The position numbers and the translations under genes were made by a program. 50,890 bases of DNA from a virus: positions 1 to 50,890 of the IMG/VR virus record IMGVR_UViG_3300009509_000071, one strand, 5' to 3'. This document shows, piece after piece, positions 6,849 to 35,249 of this stretch. The first letter of the stretch is position 1, and the number at the start of each line of letters is the position of its first letter. A model generated the notes under the pieces. It saw only the letters and a list, made by a program, of their open reading frames with translations, had not been told where the DNA came from and did no database searches.

Positions 6849-7786
6849 TAAAGCTCTTTCAATGCTTCATATAGTTCATTCAACTTATCTTGACTATACT
6901 TTCTCCAGCCATCTTGCTTTTTCATCTCAGCTTCTATCTTTGCGCCCTTGTCAGTGCCTTTATGTTTGGTGAAGTAGGCCATGATAGTTTTCACTGTAAC
7001 ATTCTCTATGTTTACAGTATCACTCTTGTCATTAAGTAGCGTATCTTTTATATCAACATCTCCAGATACAATATCTGCCTCAATGACATTCTCTTCATTC
7101 AGCTTATCTACTTCATCAAGGATTGTGACAGATCTTCCTCTTGGAATAAAGAAGTCATTAAATGCTCTTCTGCATGCTTTATGCTCCCAAGTCTGTATCT
7201 TGTATCGATCATCTTGCATGGTTTTTGTAACACTTTTTACATACTCAGCCCCAACAAAAACTTGTTGTTTTGGTAGTTTCTTTTGGCCATCAATCAGATC
7301 GATGAGTGAAATATCAAACCCAGCAAAATGCTCTTCAACCCACTTGCTATCTGTTGTCTTTATTTCAGTAAGCTGATCTCCATTCATGTCGCTCTGAGAT
7401 ACTATCACGCCATTCAAATTGAATACACGATCTACTTCAAGGTAAAACCCAGCATCATATGCTATCTGCCTGATCCCTTGTTTTGGGATTATTAGAGTAG
7501 GCATCATGCCTTTGTCTTTTACATTGAAAGGAACAATATAAGCCTCTTTATACACTGGATTGATATTGATACCAAGCTTTGAAACATTCAATGCAAAAGT
7601 CAAGATATGCTTTGGATCAACCTTTTCCATAAGGTAGCTATTCTCTGCAAGTTCCAAAAAGTTTTCCTTGAAGTCTTGCTGCTCCTTTTGTGTTGGTAGC
7701 CTATCCACAATGATGCTGCTGTTACTTTCAAGCGCTGCAGTGAGCGCCTTTTTATTGGTTTCTATTTTTACTAAAGCTTGTGACAT
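6848..7786 (-). CDS. recT: RecT-family single-strand annealing protein
   Basis: A 312-residue protein with family features: ILTFALNVSKLGININPVYK, IPKQGIRQIAYDAG, and a C-terminal WEHKACRRAFNDFF segment. RecT proteins coat ssDNA and promote annealing and strand invasion. Here it acts with the RecE-like nuclease directly downstream and probably with the phage SSB. GGAGGAATTGTA precedes ATG. Confidence 0.9.
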   Translation of the reverse strand: MSQALVKIETNKKALTAALESNSSIIVDRLPTQKEQQDFKENFLELAENSYLMEKVDPKHILTFALNVSKLGININPVYKEAYIVPFNVKDKGMMPTLIIPKQGIRQIAYDAGFYLEVDRVFNLNGVIVSQSDMNGDQLTEIKTTDSKWVEEHFAGFDISLIDLIDGQKKLPKQQVFVGAEYVKSVTKTMQDDRYKIQTWEHKACRRAFNDFFIPRGRSVTILDEVDKLNEENVIEADIVSGDVDIKDTLLNDKSDTVNIENVTVKTIMAYFTKHKGTDKGAKIEAEMKKQDGWRKYSQDKLNELYEALKEL

Positions 7787-9060
7787 TACAATTCCTCCAA
7801 GTCATCTGTTTTAAACATCTCTGCAAAGTGAGCAACTATTTTTGCTCTTGCATCAGCCGCATCCATAGCGGAAACATTCATCATCTGCAGCTCAAATGTT
7901 ATTTTCTGTATCCCATCATCACTAACGCCAAAAGTTTTATTTTTAACTTTCTGTAGCGCATCAGTTGCGTTTGATTTTGAGATCAAATCCTTTAAGCTAT
8001 TTGCAATTCTTACAACCTCATTTTTGTTATCTTCGCCAATGAGTTTTCCATGTATTGTCCTGAGCCTATCAACTTTCTTTGTCAAAGTATCTGCATCATC
8101 AAGAAGTACGCCCTCATTGATAGTTCTTACTTCAATCATTATCTCTTTATCATGCGCATCGATCTCATTCTGCTTTGACTGCAGCGCATCTCTTTCTGCC
8201 ATTGCTTCCAATGCTCTGATGTTAGCCTCAGCTTTTTCAATCTTGTTGTTGATCGATCTATGGCAGCTTTCAATTACATCTGGATAGTTTGCTTCAACGC
8301 TTTCTCTCAGCCTAAATAGTGACTTTATTGCAGCATTAATGATCTCTGGATTATCGCTATCTACATCGATGTTGTCTAGGTAACTCTCAAACTGCTTGCT
8401 CTGCAGATCTTTTTTCTCATTGATCGCAAGTGCTTCTCTTATAGGCTTTGCAATTTTTTCAAACTCATCTCTGATGGTTTTCAGTGCTGCAGCAGAAGTC
8501 TTTTTTGTTTTTTCTGTTGGAAGCATCGATGCATTTTGTCTCTTTGACTCTATGAAGCTATCGAACATATCTATCGTTATTCCGATACCCTCACTCTCAT
8601 CGATCATCTCATTAAGAACTGATCTTATGTTTGCCTCAGCAATCTTAAAAGTCTTTTCTTTCATGGCCAGTATTTGATCATCTATTGATTTAATGATCTC
8701 ATCTTTCAGCCTTTTTTCATTTGCTGTAAACTTTGACTTTACTTCATCAAAACTGGATGTGACACTTGTTCTTGTTGCCTTGAGCCATTGATAAATCTCA
8801 TTAAACTCTTTCTTTACAAGTTCAACATTCCCAATATCAAGCTCATTCTTAATTACCTCATTTGCTCTGGCGGCCATGAGATCGATGCCCATGCCAATAA
8901 TTTCAGCATTATGCTCCATGCTTCCATTGTCAGCAACATTGATCACTATAGGAACTAGATCGTATCCGTTCCCTTTTCTTTGTCTCTCCAGCTCCTCAAT
9001 GAAATTACTACTACTTACGCCTATTGTGCTTGAAAATACATCTATGGCAGTTCTACTCAC
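7786..9060 (-). CDS. Coiled-coil protein, DUF1351-like, partner of RecT
   Basis: A 424-residue protein starting at GTG (AAGGAG upstream) and ending at the RecT start. Most of the chain is heptad-rich helix (ELERQRKG; VELVKKEFNEIYQWLKATRT; KFTANEKRLKDEI). This layout resembles DUF1351 and related coiled-coil proteins encoded beside recT in many phages. Function is unknown; a structural partner of the recombinase or a nucleoprotein organiser is plausible. Confidence 0.6.
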   Translation of the reverse strand: MSRTAIDVFSSTIGVSSSNFIEELERQRKGNGYDLVPIVINVADNGSMEHNAEIIGMGIDLMAARANEVIKNELDIGNVELVKKEFNEIYQWLKATRTSVTSSFDEVKSKFTANEKRLKDEIIKSIDDQILAMKEKTFKIAEANIRSVLNEMIDESEGIGITIDMFDSFIESKRQNASMLPTEKTKKTSAAALKTIRDEFEKIAKPIREALAINEKKDLQSKQFESYLDNIDVDSDNPEIINAAIKSLFRLRESVEANYPDVIESCHRSINNKIEKAEANIRALEAMAERDALQSKQNEIDAHDKEIMIEVRTINEGVLLDDADTLTKKVDRLRTIHGKLIGEDNKNEVVRIANSLKDLISKSNATDALQKVKNKTFGVSDDGIQKITFELQMMNVSAMDAADARAKIVAHFAEMFKTDDLEEL

Positions 9061-9098: not shown

Positions 9099-9578
9099 TT
9101 ATGCATGCAAAACATATCTAAGCCTCCTAGAATTTACAGGCGCTTTCAGTTTTGACTTAGCCATATCCTCAATCTGTCTCACCCTCTCTCTAGTGATACC
9201 AAAAATATTTCCTATCTCTTCAAGCGTATAGCATCCATCAGCATGACTTCCAGTGTATGCACTGATCTCTTCATAAAGTTTCTTCTTGTTTAATGCCCTT
9301 ACATATTCGGCCTCAAGTTCAAGCTGTCTAGCCCATGCTCTTATTGCTGGATCATTATCTTTTTTTAGTTTTGTGATTGTTCTCATTGCAAGTAGGTGAG
9401 CATTTATCCTTGCCAGCTCCTCATTAAACACTTTGTATTTAATTCTGTCATCTTTTGGCTTTCTACTATTGTGAAGTCTAGCTTTTGCGTTTTCGCTTTT
9501 GATTTTATTTCTTTCTTTCATGACTTGTTCATTTATAAATTGAACATACTCAAACTCATTAATATCCAGTATTACCAT
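9099..9578 (-). CDS. Sigma-70 region 4-like DNA-binding protein
   Basis: A 159-residue protein. Its C-terminal ~45 residues are a near-canonical sigma-70 region 4 helix-turn-helix (CYTLEEIGNIFGITRERVRQ, then IEDMAKSKLK), the part of sigma that reads -35 boxes. No region 2 is present; the N-terminal 110 residues are charged helices. It is not a full sigma factor. It could act as a transcription activator, a sigma appropriator or a late-gene regulator. It is the second gene of the left early operon. Confidence 0.75.
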   Translation of the reverse strand: MVILDINEFEYVQFINEQVMKERNKIKSENAKARLHNSRKPKDDRIKYKVFNEELARINAHLLAMRTITKLKKDNDPAIRAWARQLELEAEYVRALNKKKLYEEISAYTGSHADGCYTLEEIGNIFGITRERVRQIEDMAKSKLKAPVNSRRLRYVLHA

Positions 9579-11528: not shown

Positions 11529-11759
11529 ATGCATTATTCACAAAAAGTAGTTTTATTAGCAAAAAGACACGATTTAACGCCTTACGCTATGGCTAAACAA
11601 ATAAATTTAAATCCAAATGCAGCAACCAACTGGTTTAAAAGAAGCAAAGTTCCTGAGAAGTATGCGATTGATATTGCAGACCTATTTGAAGTTGATCTTA
11701 GAAAGCTTCTTGATCCAAAGGTTAGCTTTGAGGATTTAATAGCTTCCACAAAGAACTGA
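11529..11759 (+). CDS. Cro-like HTH regulator, probably leaderless
   Basis: A 76-residue protein with an HTH domain (KRHDLTPYAMAKQINLNPNA ... NWFKRSKVPEKYAIDIADLF) similar in layout to the repressor N-terminus. It is divergent from the repressor and under a consensus promoter. There is no Shine-Dalgarno site, and ATG lies at the expected transcription start. It is the likely lytic-cycle regulator. The stop codon lies inside an 8-bp hairpin (AAGAACTG/CAGTTCTT). Confidence 0.85.
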   Translation: MHYSQKVVLLAKRHDLTPYAMAKQINLNPNAATNWFKRSKVPEKYAIDIADLFEVDLRKLLDPKVSFEDLIASTKN

Positions 11760-11957: not shown

Positions 11958-12227
11958 ATGAGTCACATACATTCACTGCTTGCTTATCACACGCTTGCTG
12001 CTGATGGAACATTGAGCCGACAACAAAGAGAGATCCTTGATCTCTTGGCTGATGGAAAACCAAGAACTTCACGACAAATAGCAAAAGAATTGGATATGGA
12101 GCGCACTAGCGTTACTGGGAGAATTACTGCACTAAAAAACTCTTCAACTCCAGTTCTTGAAATATTTAGAGATGTCTGCCCAGATACAAATAAGGCAGTA
12201 GAATTTTATAGGGCGGCAAGAATATGA
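11958..12227 (+). CDS. Winged-helix DNA-binding protein
   Basis: An 89-residue protein containing one winged HTH (RQQREILDLLADGKPRTSRQ, then IAKELDMERTSVTGRITALK), of MarR/LexA-N type. A GGGGGAATTAAT site precedes ATG. It is ATGA-coupled to the replication initiator and may be its accessory factor or a regulator of the right operon. Confidence 0.75.
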   Translation: MSHIHSLLAYHTLAADGTLSRQQREILDLLADGKPRTSRQIAKELDMERTSVTGRITALKNSSTPVLEIFRDVCPDTNKAVEFYRAARI

Positions 12228-12964
12228 ATAGCGAACACAGCTTCAATATTATTGCGGCTCAAGAACTAGGAATAGAGAAGTCTATTCTTCTTGGGTATAT
12301 CTCATATTGGTGCAGAAAGAATGAGGTAAACGGAAAGAATATTTTTGACGGAAAAGCATACACATATAACACATATGATGCCTTTGAAGAACTATTCCCA
12401 TACATGAAAAGTAGGACTATCAGAAAGCATATAAAAGAGCTTGAAGATGACGGATATATCGAGTCAAGAAACGATATAAACGACAATAAATGGGATAAGA
12501 CAAAATGGTATCATCGAACTGACAAACAAGTTGGCATCGAACTGACACAAAATGTCACATCGGAAAGTCAAAATATGTCTGATCATAATAATGAACAGTT
12601 CATACACAATTCAAACGCAGTTCATACACAAGATGCAGAAGATGCCATTTTCAATGCTTGGAATAATCTTGCTTCTAATACTGAACTAAGCAAAATTCAA
12701 TCACTTACAAAATCAAGAAAATCAAAATTAAAAACTAGATTTAAAGACTTTGCTGACTTTGATACTAAGTTCATTGATGCATGCGAAAAGATCATGCAGT
12801 CAAGCTTCCTTATGGGGAAAAATAGCAATGGATGGAAAATAACTTTTGACTGGATCATAGACAATGACTCGAATATCATAAAAGTTCTTGAGGGTAACTA
12901 TGACAGCAAAAAAGGAACTTTTGACATTAGCGGTAAAAACTACAATGAAAGAGAGGATTTTTAG
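12224..12964 (+). CDS. Replication initiator / DnaD-like replisome organiser
   Basis: A 246-residue protein with a winged-helix N-terminus typical of phage replisome organisers (LGIEKSILLGYISYWCRKNE; RTIRKHIKELEDDGYIESRN) and a helical C-terminal segment (AIFNAWNNLAS ... NGWKITFDWIIDND) like the DnaB2/initiator tail. It lies immediately before a DnaC-type loader, as lambda O lies before P. It should bind the phage origin and recruit loader and helicase. No clear iteron array was found inside the gene. Confidence 0.7.
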   Translation: MNSEHSFNIIAAQELGIEKSILLGYISYWCRKNEVNGKNIFDGKAYTYNTYDAFEELFPYMKSRTIRKHIKELEDDGYIESRNDINDNKWDKTKWYHRTDKQVGIELTQNVTSESQNMSDHNNEQFIHNSNAVHTQDAEDAIFNAWNNLASNTELSKIQSLTKSRKSKLKTRFKDFADFDTKFIDACEKIMQSSFLMGKNSNGWKITFDWIIDNDSNIIKVLEGNYDSKKGTFDISGKNYNEREDF

Positions 12965-13603
12965 ATGAGTAAGAACGATTTTAAAACTCCTATGGATATT
13001 GTAGTTCCAATCGGAACAGAGAAAAAAGCTGCTGATGTTGTAGTCACATCTCTAACAAGTAATGTTGAGCATATAAAGCAATTTTCAAACATACCTAAGA
13101 GATACAAAGATGCAAAGTTTGATCCAAAGACAAAAGACCAAGAAAGACTTGTAAACGAAATAAGAGATAACTTTTCTGGAAAAAGAATTGATGATGTGAG
13201 TGATATGCTTGTTGTGGGCGGTGTAGGTACTGGAAAGACTCATATTGCCATAGGCGCATTGAACTCACTCATCGAAAAAGAGATCTACTGCAGATATGTA
13301 ACTGAGTATGAACTTCTTGATACATATTTCAGAAAAGAGTACACAAAGTTTGATGGCTTCAAGGGTGTAAGTGTTTTAGTCATAGATGAAGTAGGAAAGA
13401 GGGAGCTTGTAGATTGGCAAATGATACAGCTTGAGGAGCTTATCAGCTACAGATACAATGAGATGCTTCCTACAATTTTTATCACCAATAGAACAGTTGA
13501 TGAGTTTAAAGCATTTGTTGGAGACAGAGTTACAGACAGGCTAAGAGATAACAAGATCAAAAGAGTAATTCTTGATGGAGAAAGCATGAGAGGTAAAAAT
13601 TGA
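12965..13603 (+). CDS. DnaC-like AAA+ helicase loader
   Basis: A 212-residue AAA+ ATPase with Walker A GGVGTGKT (near residue 80), Walker B VLVIDEVGKRE, sensor 1 ITNRT and an arginine-finger region DRVTDRLRDN. This matches DnaC/DnaI loaders. It would place the host DnaB helicase at the phage origin with the initiator encoded just upstream. Confidence 0.9.
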   Translation: MSKNDFKTPMDIVVPIGTEKKAADVVVTSLTSNVEHIKQFSNIPKRYKDAKFDPKTKDQERLVNEIRDNFSGKRIDDVSDMLVVGGVGTGKTHIAIGALNSLIEKEIYCRYVTEYELLDTYFRKEYTKFDGFKGVSVLVIDEVGKRELVDWQMIQLEELISYRYNEMLPTIFITNRTVDEFKAFVGDRVTDRLRDNKIKRVILDGESMRGKN

Positions 13604-15677: not shown

Positions 15678-15950
15678 ATGGAATACTATAAAGCGATCAT
15701 GACATCCAGAAGAAAAAAGATCTGGAAAAAGCAAGATGGAATAGCCTTGCAATATGAGTGCGTAATGATAGAGAATGTTCTAAAAGATGGAGTTCCATTT
15801 AGGGATCATGTTTGGATAAAAGATGCAAAAAGGCTAAATGATATTTGCAGTGGGGATGTTTTCACCTTTACTGCAAGAATACAAGAATATGCAAATGGGA
15901 AAAAGAGTGGGCTTAGGCACATAAGGAATGTATCAAAGGCTGCTGCATGA
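15678..15950 (+). CDS. OB-fold-like protein, paralogue of 20447-20740
   Basis: A 90-residue protein containing FRDHVWIKDAKRL, GDVFTFTARI and GLRHIRNVSK. The same pattern (FRDHSWIKMTKRL, GDKISATATL, GLKSFRNVQI) occurs in the gene at 20447 on the opposite strand. The strand order and spacing suggest a small OB-type barrel and nucleic-acid binding. Function is inferred only. Confidence 0.55.
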   Translation: MEYYKAIMTSRRKKIWKKQDGIALQYECVMIENVLKDGVPFRDHVWIKDAKRLNDICSGDVFTFTARIQEYANGKKSGLRHIRNVSKAAA

Positions 15951-16270: not shown

Positions 16271-16625
16271 AACAAAAGGGAAAACTGGAGAGCGAGAAGT
16301 TGTAAATATGCTCAAGGATGCTGGGTTTGATGCCGCAAGAAACTTGGATCAGGTAAGGGATGGCGGCCATGACATAGTTGGGATTAGTAATGTTGCAATA
16401 GAAGTAAAAAGATCTAAAGTTCTTCTATTGAGTAAATGGTGGACTCAGACTGTAAAACAGGCTGGAGATGATAAGTTCCCAGTGCTTGCATATAGGCTTG
16501 ACAGGCAAAAATGGAAAGTAGTGGTAACTTCTGATTTCCTATCCAAAGATTTACCCAGATCGATCACATTAACTCTGGAATGGGATGATTTCATATATTA
16601 TTTAAGAGAGGTTATAGATGGCTGA
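16257..16625 (+). CDS. PDDEXK Holliday-junction-resolvase-like nuclease
   Basis: A 122-residue protein with the Hjc-like active site: GKTGEREVVNMLKDAGF (glutamate), RDGGHDIVGIS (aspartate), AIEVKRSKV (E-x-K). The later segment FPVLAYRLDRQKWKVVV is the typical closing beta-hairpin. It should cleave branched recombination intermediates. It overlaps the HNH gene upstream and the phosphoesterase gene downstream. Confidence 0.8.
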   Translation: MVNSRTKGKTGEREVVNMLKDAGFDAARNLDQVRDGGHDIVGISNVAIEVKRSKVLLLSKWWTQTVKQAGDDKFPVLAYRLDRQKWKVVVTSDFLSKDLPRSITLTLEWDDFIYYLREVIDG

Positions 16626-18171
16626 CAAGTATTGCCCTAAGTGCAGCAGCACTTCAATGACAAAACTAAAAGATACTGCTCAAAGTGGAAAGTATCGATG
16701 GAGATGCAGAGACTGCAAGCATAGAACTACAAATCCGCATACTAAGCATCCATCTCATCAATCTGGCCTCAATATAAAAGACATACAATCCAAAACACTT
16801 GTAGTAACTAGCGCAATGGCAAATACAGACACGCATCAGGAAACACTTGGAGTTATTCTTAATTACTGTAGCCACAATGATGCGCAACTACTTGTAATCC
16901 CAGTAAAGTACAGAAATAGAGACAATATAAACATCCAGAATGATGAGCCTTTGACATATGATGATGCACTTGAGCCATATCTTTTGCGTAAAAATTATAA
17001 GGTAAACAAAAATCTTACTATCTTTGCAGAAAGATCGATCAACGCAACAAGAAAGAGGCCTTTGACATCTAAAGAAAATCTAGCAAAAGAGAGCAGTGGG
17101 ATCTTCGCACATGCCAATATGTGCATGCAAGTAATCGCTACAGTGAAAGATAAAATTCCAAAGATACTCCATACTACAGGAAGCATATCTGTACCAAACT
17201 ATTCAGACAGTGATCTTGGAGATGATGCAAGACTTAATCATACACTTGGAGCAGTAGTTGTTGAAGTATATGGAGATCTTTTTTTCATGAGACAACTAAT
17301 GGTTAAAAATGGCGTACTTTACGATCTTACTACAAAATATACTGGAAACTCTGTAGAGTCTGCAAGGCCAGAACATATATCATATGGAGACACGCATCAT
17401 AAGCTGATCACAAAAGAAGAGTATGATGCCATCTGGGGCAAAAATGGAATTTACAACATACTAAAACCTAAGCAGCAAATATTTAATGACATCCTAGATT
17501 TTTATGCAGACAATCACCATCATAATTCTGATCCACTGCTGCAGTACATGAAAACCATAAACGGAGATGAGTGCATCGAGACTGAGCTGCAAGAAGTTGT
17601 TAAGTTCCTAGATGATGTAGGCGGTGGAGTTATAGTTCCAAGTAACCATAATGATCATTTGACTCAGTGGGTAAACAAGGCCTTAAAGAATGGAATATCA
17701 AACACTGTATCACATAAGAATATGCCGATCATGGCAGAACTTGTATCGATGGCAACTTCTCACATCTCAGAACATGGCGAGTACCCAAATATACTAAACT
17801 TGTATCTCAAAAAGCACTGCAAAAGTAAACTGATATTCCCTAGTAGAAACCAAGAGTACAGGCCAGTATATTGTGACTTGAGCCAGCATGGAGACAAGGG
17901 AGCAAATGGAGCAAAAGGATCGCCATATGCATTTTTGAAGAGTGGAGTTCCTACTACTCATGGCCATTGCCATTCACCATACATTATAAATGGATTTGAT
18001 GGAGTCTGGGCTACTGGAGTTACTACAAAGAATATGAATTATGCAAGTGGATTAAGTGGATGGCTTTATGCTCACATAACAGAGTATGAGAATGGCCAGA
18101 GACAAATGATCATCATGATCAAGAATAGGTTTAGGCCTCCAAGCAAAATGCCTAAAAAAAGGCAATCTTGA
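16618..18171 (+). CDS. Calcineurin-like metallophosphoesterase with zinc ribbon (T5 A1-like)
   Basis: A 517-residue protein. The N-terminus is a zinc ribbon (CPKCSS ... WRCRDCKHRTT). The body carries the ordered metal ligands of the calcineurin/Mre11 fold: SYGDTHH, FYADNHHH, PSNHNDHLTQW, DLSQHGDKG and TTHGHCHSPYI. Phage T5 A1, which degrades host DNA during infection, is a protein of this general type, and I infer relationship from motif order and length. It ends the right operon, a position suited to host-DNA degradation or recombination. Confidence 0.7.
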   Translation: MADKYCPKCSSTSMTKLKDTAQSGKYRWRCRDCKHRTTNPHTKHPSHQSGLNIKDIQSKTLVVTSAMANTDTHQETLGVILNYCSHNDAQLLVIPVKYRNRDNINIQNDEPLTYDDALEPYLLRKNYKVNKNLTIFAERSINATRKRPLTSKENLAKESSGIFAHANMCMQVIATVKDKIPKILHTTGSISVPNYSDSDLGDDARLNHTLGAVVVEVYGDLFFMRQLMVKNGVLYDLTTKYTGNSVESARPEHISYGDTHHKLITKEEYDAIWGKNGIYNILKPKQQIFNDILDFYADNHHHNSDPLLQYMKTINGDECIETELQEVVKFLDDVGGGVIVPSNHNDHLTQWVNKALKNGISNTVSHKNMPIMAELVSMATSHISEHGEYPNILNLYLKKHCKSKLIFPSRNQEYRPVYCDLSQHGDKGANGAKGSPYAFLKSGVPTTHGHCHSPYIINGFDGVWATGVTTKNMNYASGLSGWLYAHITEYENGQRQMIIMIKNRFRPPSKMPKKRQS

Positions 18172-18187
18172 GGCCACTATTGAATTT

Positions 18188-18430
18188 TTACAGACACTCA
18201 AATATGTATAGCGGATGGTATCTCTTTGTTACATAGCTATATTCTTGAGTAGATGTGATAATATGAAGCTTTTTGTCTCCATCTAGCTTACATTGTTGTG
18301 ATGCATTGCTAATATCCATTGCCTCATATATTCCACTTCCTTTTCTGTACACATAATTTGCAAGTGTAGGATCACTATTTACACATCCTGTAAAAAACAA
18401 TACTGCAGCAGCTACTATCAACTTTTTCAT
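18188..18430 (-). CDS. Small lipoprotein
   Basis: An 80-residue protein with a lipoprotein signal (MKKLIVAAAVLFFTGC) and the acylated cysteine at about position 16. The mature part is soluble. Phage lipoproteins of this size often block superinfection by binding outer-membrane receptors; that role is only suggested. It is the last gene of the leftward accessory block, which meets the right operon with 16 bases between stops. Confidence 0.7.
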   Translation of the reverse strand: MKKLIVAAAVLFFTGCVNSDPTLANYVYRKGSGIYEAMDISNASQQCKLDGDKKLHIITSTQEYSYVTKRYHPLYIFECL

Positions 18431-18441
18431 ATTTTCCCCTT

Positions 18442-18690
18442 TTAAATTTTAATATTAAGATCTTTGAAATACTTTATCATATGCAAGCAAGCATCGCATG
18501 TCACTCCATTCTTTTTTACTTGCTTGAAATGATATGTTACACTGTTCTCACCCTCTCCATAAACTTCTCCAGTACATAGCGCCCTTGAGCATCCATCAAA
18601 ATCTACAGATAGATGCCATACTGGATCATCAACTTTATCTCCATATAAATCAGTTTCTATCTTTACTACACCATGAAAGCCATCTAGCAT
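18442..18690 (-). CDS. Hypothetical protein, 82 aa
   Basis: I choose ATG at 18690 because AAAGGATG lies seven bases upstream and it follows the neighbour's stop. A start at 18801 would overlap that gene by 110 bases. The sequence contains DPVWHLSVDFDGCSRALCTG and a C-terminal CDAC pair. Unknown. Confidence 0.6.
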   Translation of the reverse strand: MLDGFHGVVKIETDLYGDKVDDPVWHLSVDFDGCSRALCTGEVYGEGENSVTYHFKQVKKNGVTCDACLHMIKYFKDLNIKI

Positions 18691-18691
18691 T

Positions 18692-18931
18692 TTACATCCT
18701 TTCAAATTTATTATTGCATCCAATATGAGAAATCCAAACTTTTTGACTTGCTGTAATTGGGATGCTGTGTATTTTTCTTTGATGTGGAACACAATATCCA
18801 TTCCTTAGATGTTTGCAGTTCTCACAAGTACGACTTTCAAGATCGTCAAATATCTTATCAACGCCATCACCGCATCCTACTAATCCATACTCATCAATTA
18901 GAAAGTCTTTTGCTTCTTCTCTATCCATCAT
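18692..18931 (-). CDS. Cysteine-containing small protein, probable zinc binder
   Basis: A 79-residue protein with TCENCKHLRNGYCVPHQRK and a further IGCNNKF, which fits a small C-x2-C zinc site. GGAG precedes ATG. Unknown function. Confidence 0.6.
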   Translation of the reverse strand: MMDREEAKDFLIDEYGLVGCGDGVDKIFDDLESRTCENCKHLRNGYCVPHQRKIHSIPITASQKVWISHIGCNNKFERM

Positions 18932-18933
18932 TA

Positions 18934-19329
18934 TTATTCACTCCAGTAACTCATACATTCTTTAGCATCACTCTCTGGATCAGATAGATCAAGATCAGTT
19001 CCAATGCTATCAATGTATGCTTCATATTCAGATGTAGCAACTCCCAAGTCACCACAAGCAATAAGTATAGTCGATATAAATATTGCCTTATAAACTTCTA
19101 TGCCAATATCAGATTTTGGTTTTTTAACTATAATAAAATCACAATCCATTGTTAGAAAATCCATAAAAGAAATAACTTCACCACTTGATTTTCTTGTTTT
19201 AAATATTATGCGATCATCATTGAAGTGCTTTATTGCATCCTCACTTGCCTTAGTATAGTAATGGAAGTATTCATTATCTTGAACAGTAGCACCATTCTCT
19301 ATAAGCTCAATAGCCTTGCTTGCTTTCAT
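18934..19329 (-). CDS. Hypothetical protein, 131 aa
   Basis: Starts ATGA-coupled to the gene before it. The first 65 residues (AIELIENGATVQD ... FIIVKKP) resemble the short domain found in many phage proteins that begins with KA.ELI..GA.V. The C-terminal half is acidic. No function is known to me. Confidence 0.6.
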   Translation of the reverse strand: MKASKAIELIENGATVQDNEYFHYYTKASEDAIKHFNDDRIIFKTRKSSGEVISFMDFLTMDCDFIIVKKPKSDIGIEVYKAIFISTILIACGDLGVATSEYEAYIDSIGTDLDLSDPESDAKECMSYWSE

Positions 19330-19907
19330 GCTATCTCCATTTCAAGCGCCTCAGCAGCCTTAATTAATCCATATGCCCAAAGATAAGGCCTAAGCTTCAA
19401 GCTCATACCAAAATCAAAAGCATACTCCCAGTAATCAGCATCTTGGAAGAACTCTGAGCCATAATTTCTAACAAACTCAATCCAGTCATGATGATCGTAA
19501 GTTCTATCTCTCCAGTCATCAAACTCTTCATCATCTATTATTTTTTCATGATCCTCAAAATATTCAATAACGCTTGCAATACATGCATCTTGGTCAAACT
19601 CTTTTAGGCTTTCACTCTCATAGCTAATACACTTCTCAAGGAAGTATCCTAAGCTATTTGAAAATCTGGCCATATCAAAGAAAGTGTTGCTGCTATTATG
19701 CCAAGTAAATGATGCATTTCCATAGTCTCCATTTATATGCAAGTATCCAGACACATATGTGAATATCATATATCCATTTCTTGTATCTGGCCTCCTAAAT
19801 GTAACTATGCAGTCATTCTCTCCAGTATCAAGATCAACTTTTGATACTACATGCTTATCAAAAGTATCACCTCTTTTTTCTATAAAGTCACTCATTCCAT
19901 TAAACAT
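19326..19907 (-). CDS. Acidic hypothetical protein, 193 aa
   Basis: AGGAG precedes ATG. The middle is very acidic (DHEKIIDDEEFDDWRDRTYD) and rich in aromatics (DADYWEYAFDFGMSLKLR). No family recognised. The composition would fit a DNA-mimic or inhibitor protein, but this is conjecture. Confidence 0.6.
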   Translation of the reverse strand: MFNGMSDFIEKRGDTFDKHVVSKVDLDTGENDCIVTFRRPDTRNGYMIFTYVSGYLHINGDYGNASFTWHNSSNTFFDMARFSNSLGYFLEKCISYESESLKEFDQDACIASVIEYFEDHEKIIDDEEFDDWRDRTYDHHDWIEFVRNYGSEFFQDADYWEYAFDFGMSLKLRPYLWAYGLIKAAEALEMEIA

Positions 19908-19915
19908 AGATACTC

Positions 19916-20149
19916 CTAGTCAAAGCCATTTATTTTTTTGAATTTTCTGCAGCAATTCAAACATCTCTTACTGCTTCCACAGTCACTTAGTCCATGTGCT
20001 TTTTGCACTATAACTTCATACACTGCACCCTCCAAAACAGTATCTGGATGATCTGGATTATTACCACAATATCCTCTCTCTTCTCCAGCCCTTACCCTAA
20101 GTCCACATAGCGCATTTCCGTTTCCGTCATCTATATGTATTTTTTTCAT
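19916..20149 (-). CDS. Cysteine-rich small protein, 77 aa
   Basis: ATG at 20149 has AGGTAG upstream; the longer frame to 20197 lacks a ribosome site and overlaps the neighbour. Seven cysteines (CGLRVRAGEERGYC, then CGSSKRCLNCCRK) suggest zinc binding. Unknown function. Confidence 0.6.
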   Translation of the reverse strand: MKKIHIDDGNGNALCGLRVRAGEERGYCGNNPDHPDTVLEGAVYEVIVQKAHGLSDCGSSKRCLNCCRKFKKINGFD

Positions 20150-20153
20150 AATG

Positions 20154-20444
20154 CTACCTAAGCCCAGAAAATATGTGTTGATTTGATTTATCCTCAATGG
20201 TATTTAAGTCAAATACATCTGATCTCATATTGCTTGAAAACTGATCTATTGCAGCATCCAAAGTGTCAAAAGTATCTGTTATATTTTTTCTTGAAATTTC
20301 ACCATCATCTCCAAAGTACCTTACCTTATATGATATGCTATTTATACTAATCGTTATACTCTCTATGATCCCACTCATTATTGGAGTTTCACATCCGCTA
20401 TCAATGAAAAATACAATTTCACCTACATCTCTTCTTTTTTTCAT
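20154..20444 (-). CDS. Hypothetical protein, 96 aa
   Basis: ATG at 20444 has AAAGG seven bases upstream. Beta-rich sequence (GEIVFFIDSGCETPIMSGII) of SH3-like type followed by a helical tail. Unknown. Confidence 0.55.
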   Translation of the reverse strand: MKKRRDVGEIVFFIDSGCETPIMSGIIESITISINSISYKVRYFGDDGEISRKNITDTFDTLDAAIDQFSSNMRSDVFDLNTIEDKSNQHIFSGLR

Positions 20445-20446
20445 AA

Positions 20447-20740
20447 TCAATCCTTTGTTATTTGTACATTCCTAAAACTCTTTAGGCCATATTTGCTGTT
20501 TTTAATGCTACTGCTATCAATATAGTTGATCAGTGTTGCTGTAGCGCTTATTTTGTCGCCTATGCTCACTTTTGACAATCTCTTTGTCATCTTAATCCAT
20601 GAGTGATCTCTAAAATACTCTCCATTCACATGAACATTTGCAAGTACGATCATCTCATTATTTGTATTTTTATTTAGTGTTATATTCTCGATCACTGCAG
20701 AAACTTCTACAGATGATCCAAGCAATTTTTCAAAATCCAT
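20447..20740 (-). CDS. OB-fold-like protein, paralogue of 15678-15950
   Basis: A 97-residue protein sharing FRDHSWIKMTKRL, GDKISATATL and GLKSFRNVQI with the right-operon protein at 15678, in the same order. Probably a nucleic-acid-binding barrel. Two divergent copies on opposite transcription units would be active at different times. Confidence 0.55.
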   Translation of the reverse strand: MDFEKLLGSSVEVSAVIENITLNKNTNNEMIVLANVHVNGEYFRDHSWIKMTKRLSKVSIGDKISATATLINYIDSSSIKNSKYGLKSFRNVQITKD

Positions 20741-20748
20741 TCCGTCAC

Positions 20749-20958
20749 CTATGCTACATAAAGCTTTTTTCTAAGATCATATGGGATGCCATCTAATCCA
20801 TACTCAAAAGTATATCCAAGCGCTTCAACATCAATAAGCATTGCAGCGCATTGATCATAGCTTAAACTATCGCATGTATCATACTTCTCAAGTGCAGCCA
20901 TGAGATCATCTGGGATATTTTCATAATCCTCAAATAAGTCAATTTCTACATTTTCCAT
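20749..20958 (-). CDS. Acidic small protein, 69 aa
   Basis: Strongly acidic (MENVEIDLFEDYENIPDDLM) with a short helical domain. TAAGATG junction with the gene before it. Unknown. Confidence 0.55.
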   Translation of the reverse strand: MENVEIDLFEDYENIPDDLMAALEKYDTCDSLSYDQCAAMLIDVEALGYTFEYGLDGIPYDLRKKLYVA

Positions 20959-21059: not shown

Positions 21060-21257
21060 CTACTCACCAAGCCTTTCTTTAAGATAATCTATTTTTTCCT
21101 GTAACTCATCTGTATCATTATCAAGTATATTCTCAAGCAGTCTCAGCATACTTTTTTCATCATCTCTGGCAATATTATCACTCCAAGCAGCTCCAAGTAA
21201 GTCTCTTAGCTGCTCCATTTTTTCTACAGTTCTGTAATCTAAATCTATATATGACAT
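21060..21257 (-). CDS. Small helical protein, 65 aa
   Basis: ATG at 21257 is chosen because AAAGG is seven bases upstream. The product is helical and charged (DYRTVEKMEQLRDLLGAAWS). It lies just after the clamp gene, in the same transcript. Unknown. Confidence 0.55.
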   Translation of the reverse strand: MSYIDLDYRTVEKMEQLRDLLGAAWSDNIARDDEKSMLRLLENILDNDTDELQEKIDYLKERLGE

Positions 21258-21267
21258 CCTGTATCCT

Positions 21268-22557
21268 TTATGCAATTTTCTTTGATTTACTGATCATCTT
21301 GCTAAGTGTATCTTTTTTCACTGCAGCATTTGCAATATGGAATTTTTCAAGTTCAGCCTTAAGCGCATCGATCTCTGCTTTCAACTCTGCTATCTCTGCA
21401 TCTTTTGATTTAATAATAGCATCCTTATTTACTCTTTTTGCCTTTGGCTTTGCCTCACTATATTCAAACGATGATCTATTTTCATTCATACTGAAACTGA
21501 TCTCATCGTATCTATGATGATCATCACCACTATGGTTAAGAATTATAGGCATAATAATCGTCTTAGCTCCATTTGATTTATTGATAAGCATTATAGGTAC
21601 ATTATTTCCATTAAAATGCATCTCAATCTTATTTTCAATGATCGCATCTGAGATATATTTTGCATTAATAGCGAATTTGAAAGGAACTTTTGCGCTATAG
21701 CTACACTCAATCGATGTTTTAGCTCCATTTTCAAGCGACTTTATCTCCATAAGCCCATCATGCATAGTGATCTCGATCTCTTCATATCCCTTTAGCGTAT
21801 CTTGCAGCTTAAGCCCATTTGCCATAACTGTAAATTTATTGCCTAAAGGAACGATCCTGTTTACATCTGGGTATCTACCATAAATAAGCCTCGATCTCTT
21901 CTGTATTCCATCTAATTTAAAATGAGCTATATGATCCTTATCAGATATTTTAAGATCAGTAAGTACGCTACCTTTTTTCAATGCATCCTTTGGAATAATA
22001 ATATCTCCAATATCAGCAGCATCGATCTTGCTTATTGCTAATCGTCTCGTATCTGTAGATGCGATCTGGCCATCTTTAAAGCTAACATAAAGCCCATTTA
22101 ATTCAAATTTAGGATTATTCTTATCTATAGTATCATATATAGCAGTATCCACTAATATCTCACCATCATAGCTAACAATATCATCACTATCAAAATCCAA
22201 GTTTACACGCTCTATATCGCTATCTTTGGCTATATAGTAATCCATAACGATACTACCATTTTCAGAAACTATCTTTACCTTTCCAGCAACATCGATATTT
22301 AGTATAAATTCAACATGATCACCTTTGGCCGCATCTATGAATTTTTTAAACTCTTTAAAGTTTACATCAAAAGAGATCGATGCAGTAGCATCAAATTCAA
22401 CCTCAGTATAAGTCTCTCCATTGCATGTGATAAGCTTAACGCCACTATCAGTTTTTTCAAAAAATAGGTATGCTGCCATCTGGCTTTGATCCTTTTTTTC
22501 AACACTTGCAGCTAATTCTTTTAACGCCTTTTTTAATTCCATTGTACCTAGTATCAT
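21268..22557 (-). CDS. DnaN-like DNA polymerase sliding clamp with C-terminal coiled coil
   Basis: A 429-residue protein. Residues 1-350 follow the three-domain beta clamp. The middle-domain signature reads FELNGLYVSFKDGQIASTDT then RRLAISK, then GRYPDVNRIVP, and the third domain has FAINAKYISDAI and a final TIIMPI. After the clamp an extra ~75 residues form a lysine/glutamate coiled coil (DAEIAELKAEIDALKAELEK). It may redirect host polymerase III or other clamp-binding proteins to phage DNA. It is under its own repressor-controlled promoter. Confidence 0.82.
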   Translation of the reverse strand: MILGTMELKKALKELAASVEKKDQSQMAAYLFFEKTDSGVKLITCNGETYTEVEFDATASISFDVNFKEFKKFIDAAKGDHVEFILNIDVAGKVKIVSENGSIVMDYYIAKDSDIERVNLDFDSDDIVSYDGEILVDTAIYDTIDKNNPKFELNGLYVSFKDGQIASTDTRRLAISKIDAADIGDIIIPKDALKKGSVLTDLKISDKDHIAHFKLDGIQKRSRLIYGRYPDVNRIVPLGNKFTVMANGLKLQDTLKGYEEIEITMHDGLMEIKSLENGAKTSIECSYSAKVPFKFAINAKYISDAIIENKIEMHFNGNNVPIMLINKSNGAKTIIMPIILNHSGDDHHRYDEISFSMNENRSSFEYSEAKPKAKRVNKDAIIKSKDAEIAELKAEIDALKAELEKFHIANAAVKKDTLSKMISKSKKIA

Positions 22558-22631: not shown

Positions 22632-22644
22632 CTCATGTATGCAC

Positions 22645-22674
22645 ATTGTACACAAAATGTGAATTAAATGTCAA
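22645..22674 (-). promoter_or_regulatory. Promoter of the DnaN-like gene with repressor operator
   Basis: Minus-strand TTGACA (22674-22669), 18 bp, TACAAT (22650-22645). ACACAAAATGTGA (22650-22662) lies in the spacer and is nearly identical to the left-promoter operator. It should be silent in the lysogen. Confidence 0.75.
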
Positions 22675-27124: not shown

Positions 27125-27175
27125 ATTATAGTACAATTTGTGTATAAAGTCAATAGTTTATATACAATTTGTGTA
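27125..27175 (-). promoter_or_regulatory. Cassette-block promoter with two operators
   Basis: Minus strand TTGACT (27153-27148), 17 bp, TATAAT (27130-27125). The 17-base sequence TACAATTTGTGTATAAA occurs twice (27132-27148 and 27163-27179), with the operator core TACACAAATTGTA in each. One copy lies in the spacer and one upstream, 31 bp apart, suggesting cooperative repression. Confidence 0.8.
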
Positions 27176-27179
27176 TAAA

Positions 27180-27591
27180 ATATGATCTTTTTTTTACAAT
27201 ATGCAAGTATAAAAAATATCTCATGATCATCTGATCCCATCCCATCCCATCCCAGCCGCTGCAGCATCATCCCAGCATCTGAGAGGATCACGCCCAGCCC
27301 ATCCAAGCCGCTGCAGCATCCAAGCATATGCAGCCCACTGGATTAAAAAGGTACTGTCCAGCGTTTTTCAAGGCCACAGGGATCAGCGTAGCCCCGATTT
27401 CTTTGTCTCGTTCATGTTTTTTTGCGGTTATCCACACCGATATAGAAATTCGCCCATATATATACTATATATGCGATCCATAATTATCTTGATATTTGGC
27501 ATATTTATCATGAACTTTAGTACACCATGTTATAACTAGTTGTAAAATACAAAAAATAAGGAACTATAGTTCACTTTTTCATAAAATATGC
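27180..27591. other. Intergenic cos/terminase-binding candidate region
   Basis: No convincing gene. The stretch 27233-27320 is GC-rich in an AT-rich genome. It contains four tandem ATCCC units and a 15-bp direct repeat AGCCGCTGCAGCATC (27254-27268 and 27306-27320). Downstream lie a TTATCCACA DnaA-type box (27428-27436) and the inverted repeat CATATATA/TATATATG (27455-27473). Position just before the small terminase gene matches lambda cos. Confidence 0.45.
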
Positions 27592-34221: not shown

Positions 34222-35249
34222 ATGGCAATCATTAATGATAAAAAAGAGTTCGTAAAAGCAGTAGGTGTTATCGTTGAGGCTGATCTTGGCGTTGAAAACT
34301 TATTGTTCCCGACAATGAGACTTCAAACAAAAGAGCTTATCGAGTACGATGTAGCAACAGTAGAGGCAGAAAGCCCAGCATACAACTCATTCAGAAACAC
34401 TGCAAATGTTGTATCTAAAGATGGGAAAGACAGAGTAGTTGTTGCTCCTTCAATGAGTCTATCTCTAAAGAGACTATCGATGCTGATGCTGAAATGTTCG
34501 GACAAAATGAGTACGGAGATGGTGAGATCGATGCAACTATGCAATCTGCACTTACTGGTGTTGGAAAGCTTAGACTAAGATCACTTGTTGGTAAGAAAGC
34601 GCTTATTTATGAGGTATTGACTACTCACAAAATCGCTGGTGGTTATCAAGGTAAAGATGGTGTAGAGGACATCGTGTTCAATGTTCCAGCTGCTAACACT
34701 GAGGTATTCGATGGTACAACTAACCTATACTGGAGTAACGCAAGCGCAACGCCACTTGATGACATGAAGCGTGCATATGATGCAATGAAAATCAAGCCTA
34801 CTGCAGTTGTTATGAATGACAATACTTATTCAAACTTCTATGGAAACGCTCAGGTACTCACTGTAGATAACACTTCTGCTGGTAAGAAGAGAAACTATGA
34901 GATCAATGAGAATGTAGCAGCTGGTGCAAAATTCTTTAGAGCTGGTAAGGTTATGTACAAAGGAATGATCCTTGATGTATATGTTGAAAATGAGAAGAAA
35001 CTTGTTTCTGGATCATACACTCCATTTATGCCAGACGGATATGTTTGTTATGCATCACCAATCGGTGAGATGAACTATGGTGGTATTCCGGTTGCAGAAG
35101 CTGGTGGTGTAAGAAGAATTGCTGCAGAGTACGATGTAGAAGAGATCATCACTTCTAACCCTCCACAGCACAATCTTGTGTACAGAACTGCTCCGCTTCC
35201 AACATTGAAAAATGGTGAAGCTTACTTTACGCAAAAAGTAGAAGCGTAA
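34222..35249 (+). CDS. Major capsid protein gpE-like, interrupted by one frameshift
   Basis: The first frame runs from ATG 34222 to about 34449 and the second from there to 35249; joined they give about 342 residues, the size of lambda gpE (341). At 34447 the first frame reads CCT TCA, while the second frame reads TTC AAT GAG TCT. Adding one T (CCT TTC AAT) restores ...VVVAPFNESISKETIDA. No classical slippery heptamer is present, so this is a sequencing/assembly error or an inactivating mutation and not programmed shifting. Confidence 0.82.

Follow-up and report, generated by a model that had tools for sequence, protein, structure and literature searches.

Does a clamp-like gene in a temperate phage encode a sliding clamp, or a protein that has kept a clamp's partner-binding surface and given up the ring? 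The window that raises this question is the entire IMG/VR virus record IMGVR_UViG_3300009509_000071, 50,890 nucleotides long. It carries genes for a tyrosine integrase, a CI-like repressor, SSB, exonuclease VIII, a RecT-like protein, dUTPase, terminase and portal. An O-like initiator (12224-12964) and a DnaC-like helicase loader (12965-13603) were both confirmed, in agreement with the initial annotation, which had described a temperate phage with a DnaC-type loader. The integrase has only distant matches, mostly proteobacterial, and the terminase matches those of Thiohalocapsa and Nitratiruptor phages at 27-32%. Neither a phage DNA polymerase nor a clamp loader was recognized among the genes scanned. 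We considered a defense system and rejected it, there being no PADLOC match.

The clamp-like gene lies on the minus strand at 21268..22557 and encodes 429 amino acids (P0001); the plus strand holds no long reading frame in this interval. Its product had been read as a DnaN-like sliding clamp, and the resemblance to DnaN was borne out by family profiles, AlphaFold2 and Foldseek. The profile phrog_947, 'DNA polymerase processivity factor', matches residues 2-340 with an E-value of 8.4e-26. Among Pfam families, DNA_pol3_beta_2 scores 28.8 bits, above its cut-off of 27, and DNA_pol3_beta_3 scores 19.1 bits, below its cut-off of 27. Given an alignment of 20 phage clamps, AlphaFold2 predicted three tandem clamp domains in one chain with a mean pLDDT of 79: domain I at residues 1-119 (22201..22557), domain II at 124-238 (21844..22188) and domain III at 240-340 (21538..21840), all on the minus strand. 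Foldseek placed the beta clamps of Rickettsia, E. coli and H. pylori at the top of its list (E approximately 1e-22), with TM scores against bacterial beta clamps of 0.70-0.77 by target length at 13-20% identity, and it also matched many phage 'beta clamp' models. By predicted fold and profile, P0001 is a strongly diverged, phage-encoded homologue of DnaN. Two other PHROG profiles hit the same domains. Domain II of P0001, of its relatives P0002 and P0003 (described below) and of the Sinorhizobium phage NV1.1.1 clamp is matched by phrog_3007, labeled a RusA-like resolvase, and domain III of P0001, P0002 and the NV1.1.1 clamp (P0003 being unmatched) by phrog_6615, labeled a DNA polymerase; these labels may be wrong.

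We compared P0001 with E. coli beta at the residues that a published review (PMC11139829) assigns to the partner-binding pocket and to the dimer interface. Overall identity between the two proteins is 15%, which limits the residue mapping. At the pocket, 10 of 18 residues are identical (L155, T172, R176, L177, P242, R246, N320, Y323, M362 and P363) and 14 of 18 are identical or similar, while outside it only 40 of 311 positions (13%) are identical, an enrichment with p = 5e-5. The pocket motifs KFELNG (150-155), STDTRRL and RYPDVNR stand in domain II, and KTIIMPI at the end of domain III supplies the C-terminal portion of the pocket. Absence of the peptide-pocket residues had been named as evidence against the clamp assignment; they are present. 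The pocket is the most conserved part of ordinary clamps as well, so its retention by itself is no argument against a ring.

The dimer interface gives a different result: none of its 13 residues is identical between P0001 and E. coli beta, and I272, L273 and E298 fall in gaps. In domain I, the E. coli interface residues I78, R103, R105 and F106 have no identical counterpart, with hydrophobic character partly kept (I78 to F, F106 to I), and the residues that form ion pairs across the E. coli interface are replaced. In domain III, MAFFT and hhalign agree on an eight-residue deletion between Y258 and E259 (21781..21786, minus strand). As placed by hhalign, it removes E. coli beta residues 271-278, that is, the helix end bearing Ile272 and Leu273 and most of the loader-contact loop at 275-279, the part that touches the delta subunit in E. 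coli beta. The segment is 19 residues long in P0001 and P0002, and 23 in a more distant relative on the viral contig L142; in all other full-length clamps examined it measures 25-30 residues (27 in the chromosomal ones). Interface identity is generally low in phage clamps, 0-5 of 13 in most, and the clamp of Paracoccus phage Pthi1 also has 0 of 13, without a large deletion; a diverged interface can therefore exist. Failure to close a ring had been the other ground named for doubting a clamp. In the alignment with E. coli beta the canonical closing residues are absent or deleted, which makes the ring doubtful. As far as model and alignment go, P0001 keeps the clamp fold and the pocket without the canonical ring-closing interface.

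In ring clamps the C-terminus stops at the pocket (MPMRL type), but P0001 runs on for approximately 84 residues after its pocket motif MPIIL. A low-confidence, disordered linker (residues 343-375, 21433..21531, pLDDT below 50) leads to a predicted helix with a heptad pattern (378-405, 21343..21426) and then to a second, basic helix (411-428, 21274..21327), all encoded on the minus strand. The first helix comprises 28 residues in four strict heptads, an a/d pattern equaled in none of 2,000 shuffled sequences. Thus, the extra C-terminal coiled coil of approximately 75 residues described earlier is a real extension, but the coil proper accounts for only about 28 of its residues, the rest being linker and basic helix.

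How far does this set P0001 apart from known clamps? The phrog_947 clamps of Rhizobium phage 16-3 (p081), Sinorhizobium phage NV1.1.1, Paracoccus phage Pthi1 and Arthrobacter phages share its fold and family and are likewise full-length, with one domain set per chain. Their identity to P0001 is approximately 15-20%, their domain III retains the helix segment at 25-30 residues, and those examined have no comparable coiled-coil tail; the rhizobial phage clamps retain 16-17 of the 18 pocket residues, compared with 10 in P0001. The bacterial beta clamps of E. coli, H. pylori and Rickettsia have the same three domains (TM approximately 0.75 by target length), whereas P0001 shows no interface identities, the deletion at 271-278, shorter domain II channel helices and the 84-residue extension. 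Clamps of the T4 gp45/PCNA type have two domains per chain, while P0001 has three and finds its best structural matches among bacterial beta clamps. We therefore assign P0001, on profile and predicted structure, to the DnaN/phrog_947 family, and on account of its interface residues and C-terminus we do not file it as a functional sliding clamp.

The mere presence of a clamp gene is not what makes this locus unusual. The initial annotation had found a clamp surprising in a lambda-like temperate phage, and we had considered such clamps an exception, a view that the numbers do not bear out: a tblastn search with the NV1.1.1 clamp matched 126 phage records. A few of these are chromosomal contamination; the Acinetobacter MD-2021a match, for example, is a chromosomal dnaN beside recF and gyrB, and the matches in Campylobacter and Salmonella records probably have the same origin. 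Paracoccus phage Pthi1 and Agrobacterium phage Rivra have repressor and integrase genes beside the clamp, and other carriers include Rhizobium phage 16-3 and many Arthrobacter phages. Like the gene for P0001, those of the phrog_947 clamps often lie apart from an annotated phage DNA polymerase, and phage clamp genes are often found among recombination, helicase or methylase genes instead. The order Sak4...clamp...Cas4 exonuclease occurs in phage 16-3, in NV1.1.1, where an SSB-like protein is a further neighbor, and, by reading of the ORFs, in the viral contig L120; RecT adjoins the clamp in Thermus phage Lalka8; and in Salinibacter phage M1EM-1 the clamp is followed by a primase. Helicase or methylase genes stand beside the clamp in Pthi1, Persistence, XX1924, the contig L001 and, again by reading of the ORFs, L142. 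Tight linkage of clamp and RecT or exonuclease genes was rejected as a general rule, holding in several lineages and failing in this phage and in the contig L186. A phage clamp is thus ordinary, and only the reshaped version, with pocket kept, interface lost and coil gained, is of interest. Literature searches turned up no publication describing a ring-less phage clamp or a clamp decoy.

Relatives of P0001 are few. Initial scans of viral contigs returned only two, P0002 (on L001) and P0003 (on L002), which form one clade with P0001 (support 100/98, long branches). A motif search added the 355-residue protein on L142 and two fragments of approximately 200 residues on L139 and L186. Scanning the viral contigs with the Thermus clamp yielded no relatives, and a pattern search of bacterial genomes found none close to P0001; two matches among 299 genomes of one phylum were rejected as chromosomal dnaN beside dnaA. 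The nearest full-length relative, P0002 (L001 9209-11545, IMG/VR 3300026484_000003), is a polyvalent clamp-pyrophosphatase protein of 778 residues. It shares with P0001 the motifs DKNNPKFELN, NTRRL, RFPDYQR and KTVIMPI and the same domain III deletion, but is fused to an inorganic-pyrophosphatase-like InPase domain (PF18823), and the charged stretch that joins clamp and InPase lacks strict heptads. Its gene adjoins one for a 1,819-residue DarB-like methylase/helicase.

The other relatives are shorter. P0003 has 204 residues (L002 9920-10534) and is encoded directly after exonuclease VIII and RecT genes; it consists of domain II and half of domain III, domain I being absent, in a low-confidence model (pLDDT 62). 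The fragments on L139 (reverse strand, ORF start 2537) and L186 (4120-4735) have the same composition. All three carry most of the pocket motifs of P0001, with 9 (P0003), 8 (L139) and 8 (L186) of 18 pocket residues identical to E. coli beta, the L186 fragment also lacking P242 and R246. What sets them apart from P0001 is the missing domain I and the halved domain III, and they may serve another function. Only P0001 combines the complete fold with the coil. Approximately 2.8 kb downstream of the L186 fragment (~6926-7904) we noted by eye a reverse-transcriptase-like ORF. Tentatively, the series could be read as a lineage of phage clamp derivatives that shed ring formation stepwise, with four residues deleted in the domain III segment of the L142 protein, eight in P0001 and P0002, and domain I and half of domain III gone in the fragments, while the pocket was kept; its members would then imitate the surface of the host clamp in soluble form and capture DNA enzymes of the host, in this phage on a coiled-coil scaffold.

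The setting of the gene bears on when P0001 would be made. It sits in a leftward cluster of small genes, mostly of no known family. The exonuclease-RecT genes are approximately 12 kb away and the replication genes occupy the opposite strand, so that the earlier statement that it is encoded apart from replication genes stands. A 71-residue ORF of no known family (21060..21275, minus strand) overlaps its stop codon by eight bases and is probably co-transcribed with it, and a run of further small co-directional ORFs follows at 18188..20958 (minus strand). Upstream, at 22645..22674 on the minus strand, a predicted sigma70-type promoter (TTGACA-18-TACAAT) matches the consensus at 11 of 12 positions. 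Over its -10 region, which overlaps TTTGTGTACAA, lies the operator-like site ATTTTGTGTACAATGT (22643..22658, minus strand), and two more operator-like copies (TTTGTGTATAA; 27132..27179, plus strand) lie at a second leftward promoter, that of the small-gene cluster, at approximately 27.15 kb. Exactly three copies of the word TTTGTGTAYAA are present in the window, compared with 0.07 expected, and a copy with one mismatch lies upstream of the repressor gene (11534-11544). Because these words mark two leftward promoters and a near-copy precedes the repressor gene, common repression of the clamp gene with lytic genes is plausible. The gene had been credited with its own repressor-controlled promoter; the near-consensus promoter is there as a prediction, and the operator-like word makes repression plausible. 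Nearby, GC-rich direct repeats (CATCCCAGCCGCTGCAG and variants) occupy 27241-27333 in an AT-rich intergenic stretch between the leftward and rightward clusters. Two small proteins from different operons (15678-15950, plus strand, and 20447-20740, minus strand) share the motif FRDHxWIK...RL...GD...RNV and look like paralogues.

What would such a protein do? Its partner-binding parts survive while the parts needed for closing the ring and for opening by a loader are lost, a pattern that favors a pocket-centered adaptor or decoy. We put at roughly 0.45 the probability that P0001, as an early protein of the phage, attaches in this way to the clamp-binding motifs of the host and is not a conventional ring clamp. 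P0001 would probably be made early after induction; its promoter is of the same type as the phage's other leftward promoter. A phage-encoded partner was considered and rejected, since QLxLF-type motifs number 0 in the 65 phage ORFs scanned (0.4 expected), and the partners would accordingly be host proteins. Lacking the interface residues and the segment with Ile272, Leu273 and the loader loop, P0001 would not close into a ring; its pocket would most likely bind QLxLF-type motifs of host enzymes off or beside DNA, candidate targets being Pol III alpha, the delta loader subunit, ligase, MutS/MutL, Hda and others. These enzymes would thereby either be lured off the host clamp or be delivered to intermediates of the phage DNA, and the flexibly linked coiled coil would let P0001 self-associate or dock to another component. 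Hijacking or blocking of host clamp partners would fit the pattern of pocket kept and interface lost. The fragments argue for an adaptor or decoy, retaining 8-9 of 18 pocket identities without domain I; against it stands the domain I of P0001 itself, which a pure decoy would not need.

That complete three-domain fold, together with the retained pocket, is what one would expect of a working ring with a rebuilt interface, and we regard as possible, if somewhat doubtful, that P0001 serves the phage as a processivity or tool-belt clamp of its own when its DNA is replicated or recombined, either loaded by the host loader or held together by the coil. Other phage clamps do lie in recombination or replication modules (16-3, NV1.1.1, L120, Lalka8 and M1EM-1), and an exonuclease, a RecT-like protein and an SSB are encoded by this phage itself. 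Against this reading, the exonuclease-RecT genes are far from the clamp gene, the replication genes lie on the opposite strand, no clamp loader was recognized among the genes scanned, and such a ring would have to close with Ile272, Leu273 and the loader-contact loop deleted and the ion-pair residues replaced. The same losses weigh on a direct inhibitor of the host clamp, whose protomers would pair with those of host beta in mixed dimers or else obstruct the loader: its clamp fold and the partly kept hydrophobic positions of domain I are compatible with it, but with the domain III half of the interface deleted and the charges mismatched we consider it quite improbable. A ring would also be required for DNA tracking, as in a clamp coupled to phage transcription that activates late promoters, for which T4 gp45 with gp55/gp33 is the precedent (PMC9690074). 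The phage does encode a lone sigma-region-4-like protein, and in 16-3 and NV1.1.1 sigma-factor genes lie just downstream of the clamp. Here, however, the sigma-like gene is in another operon and no clamp-binding motif was found in its product, and we think this role very unlikely.

Either outcome for the ring would be informative. If the pocket works without a ring, phages would have made the docking site of the host replication hub into a capture device that stands alone; this would be a new way of taking over the host and an obvious starting point for inhibitors of the clamp pocket. If P0001 forms a ring after all, its rebuilt interface would show how a clamp closes without Ile272 and Leu273. 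Because the relatives form a graded series, a few proteins would suffice to test the question.

Three further features of the phage deserve mention. The sigma-region-4-like gene (9099-9578, minus strand; phrog_351, E = 3.5e-7) leads the run of exonuclease and RecT genes. The replication gene run ends with a 517-residue ORF (16618-18171, plus strand) that matches phrog_1745, 'DNA transfer protein', at E = 8e-105 and has a zinc-ribbon-like stretch at its N-terminus. At the likely position of the major capsid gene, two overlapping ORFs (34222-34578 and 34494-35249) look like one gene split by a frameshift, whether a sequencing error or real.
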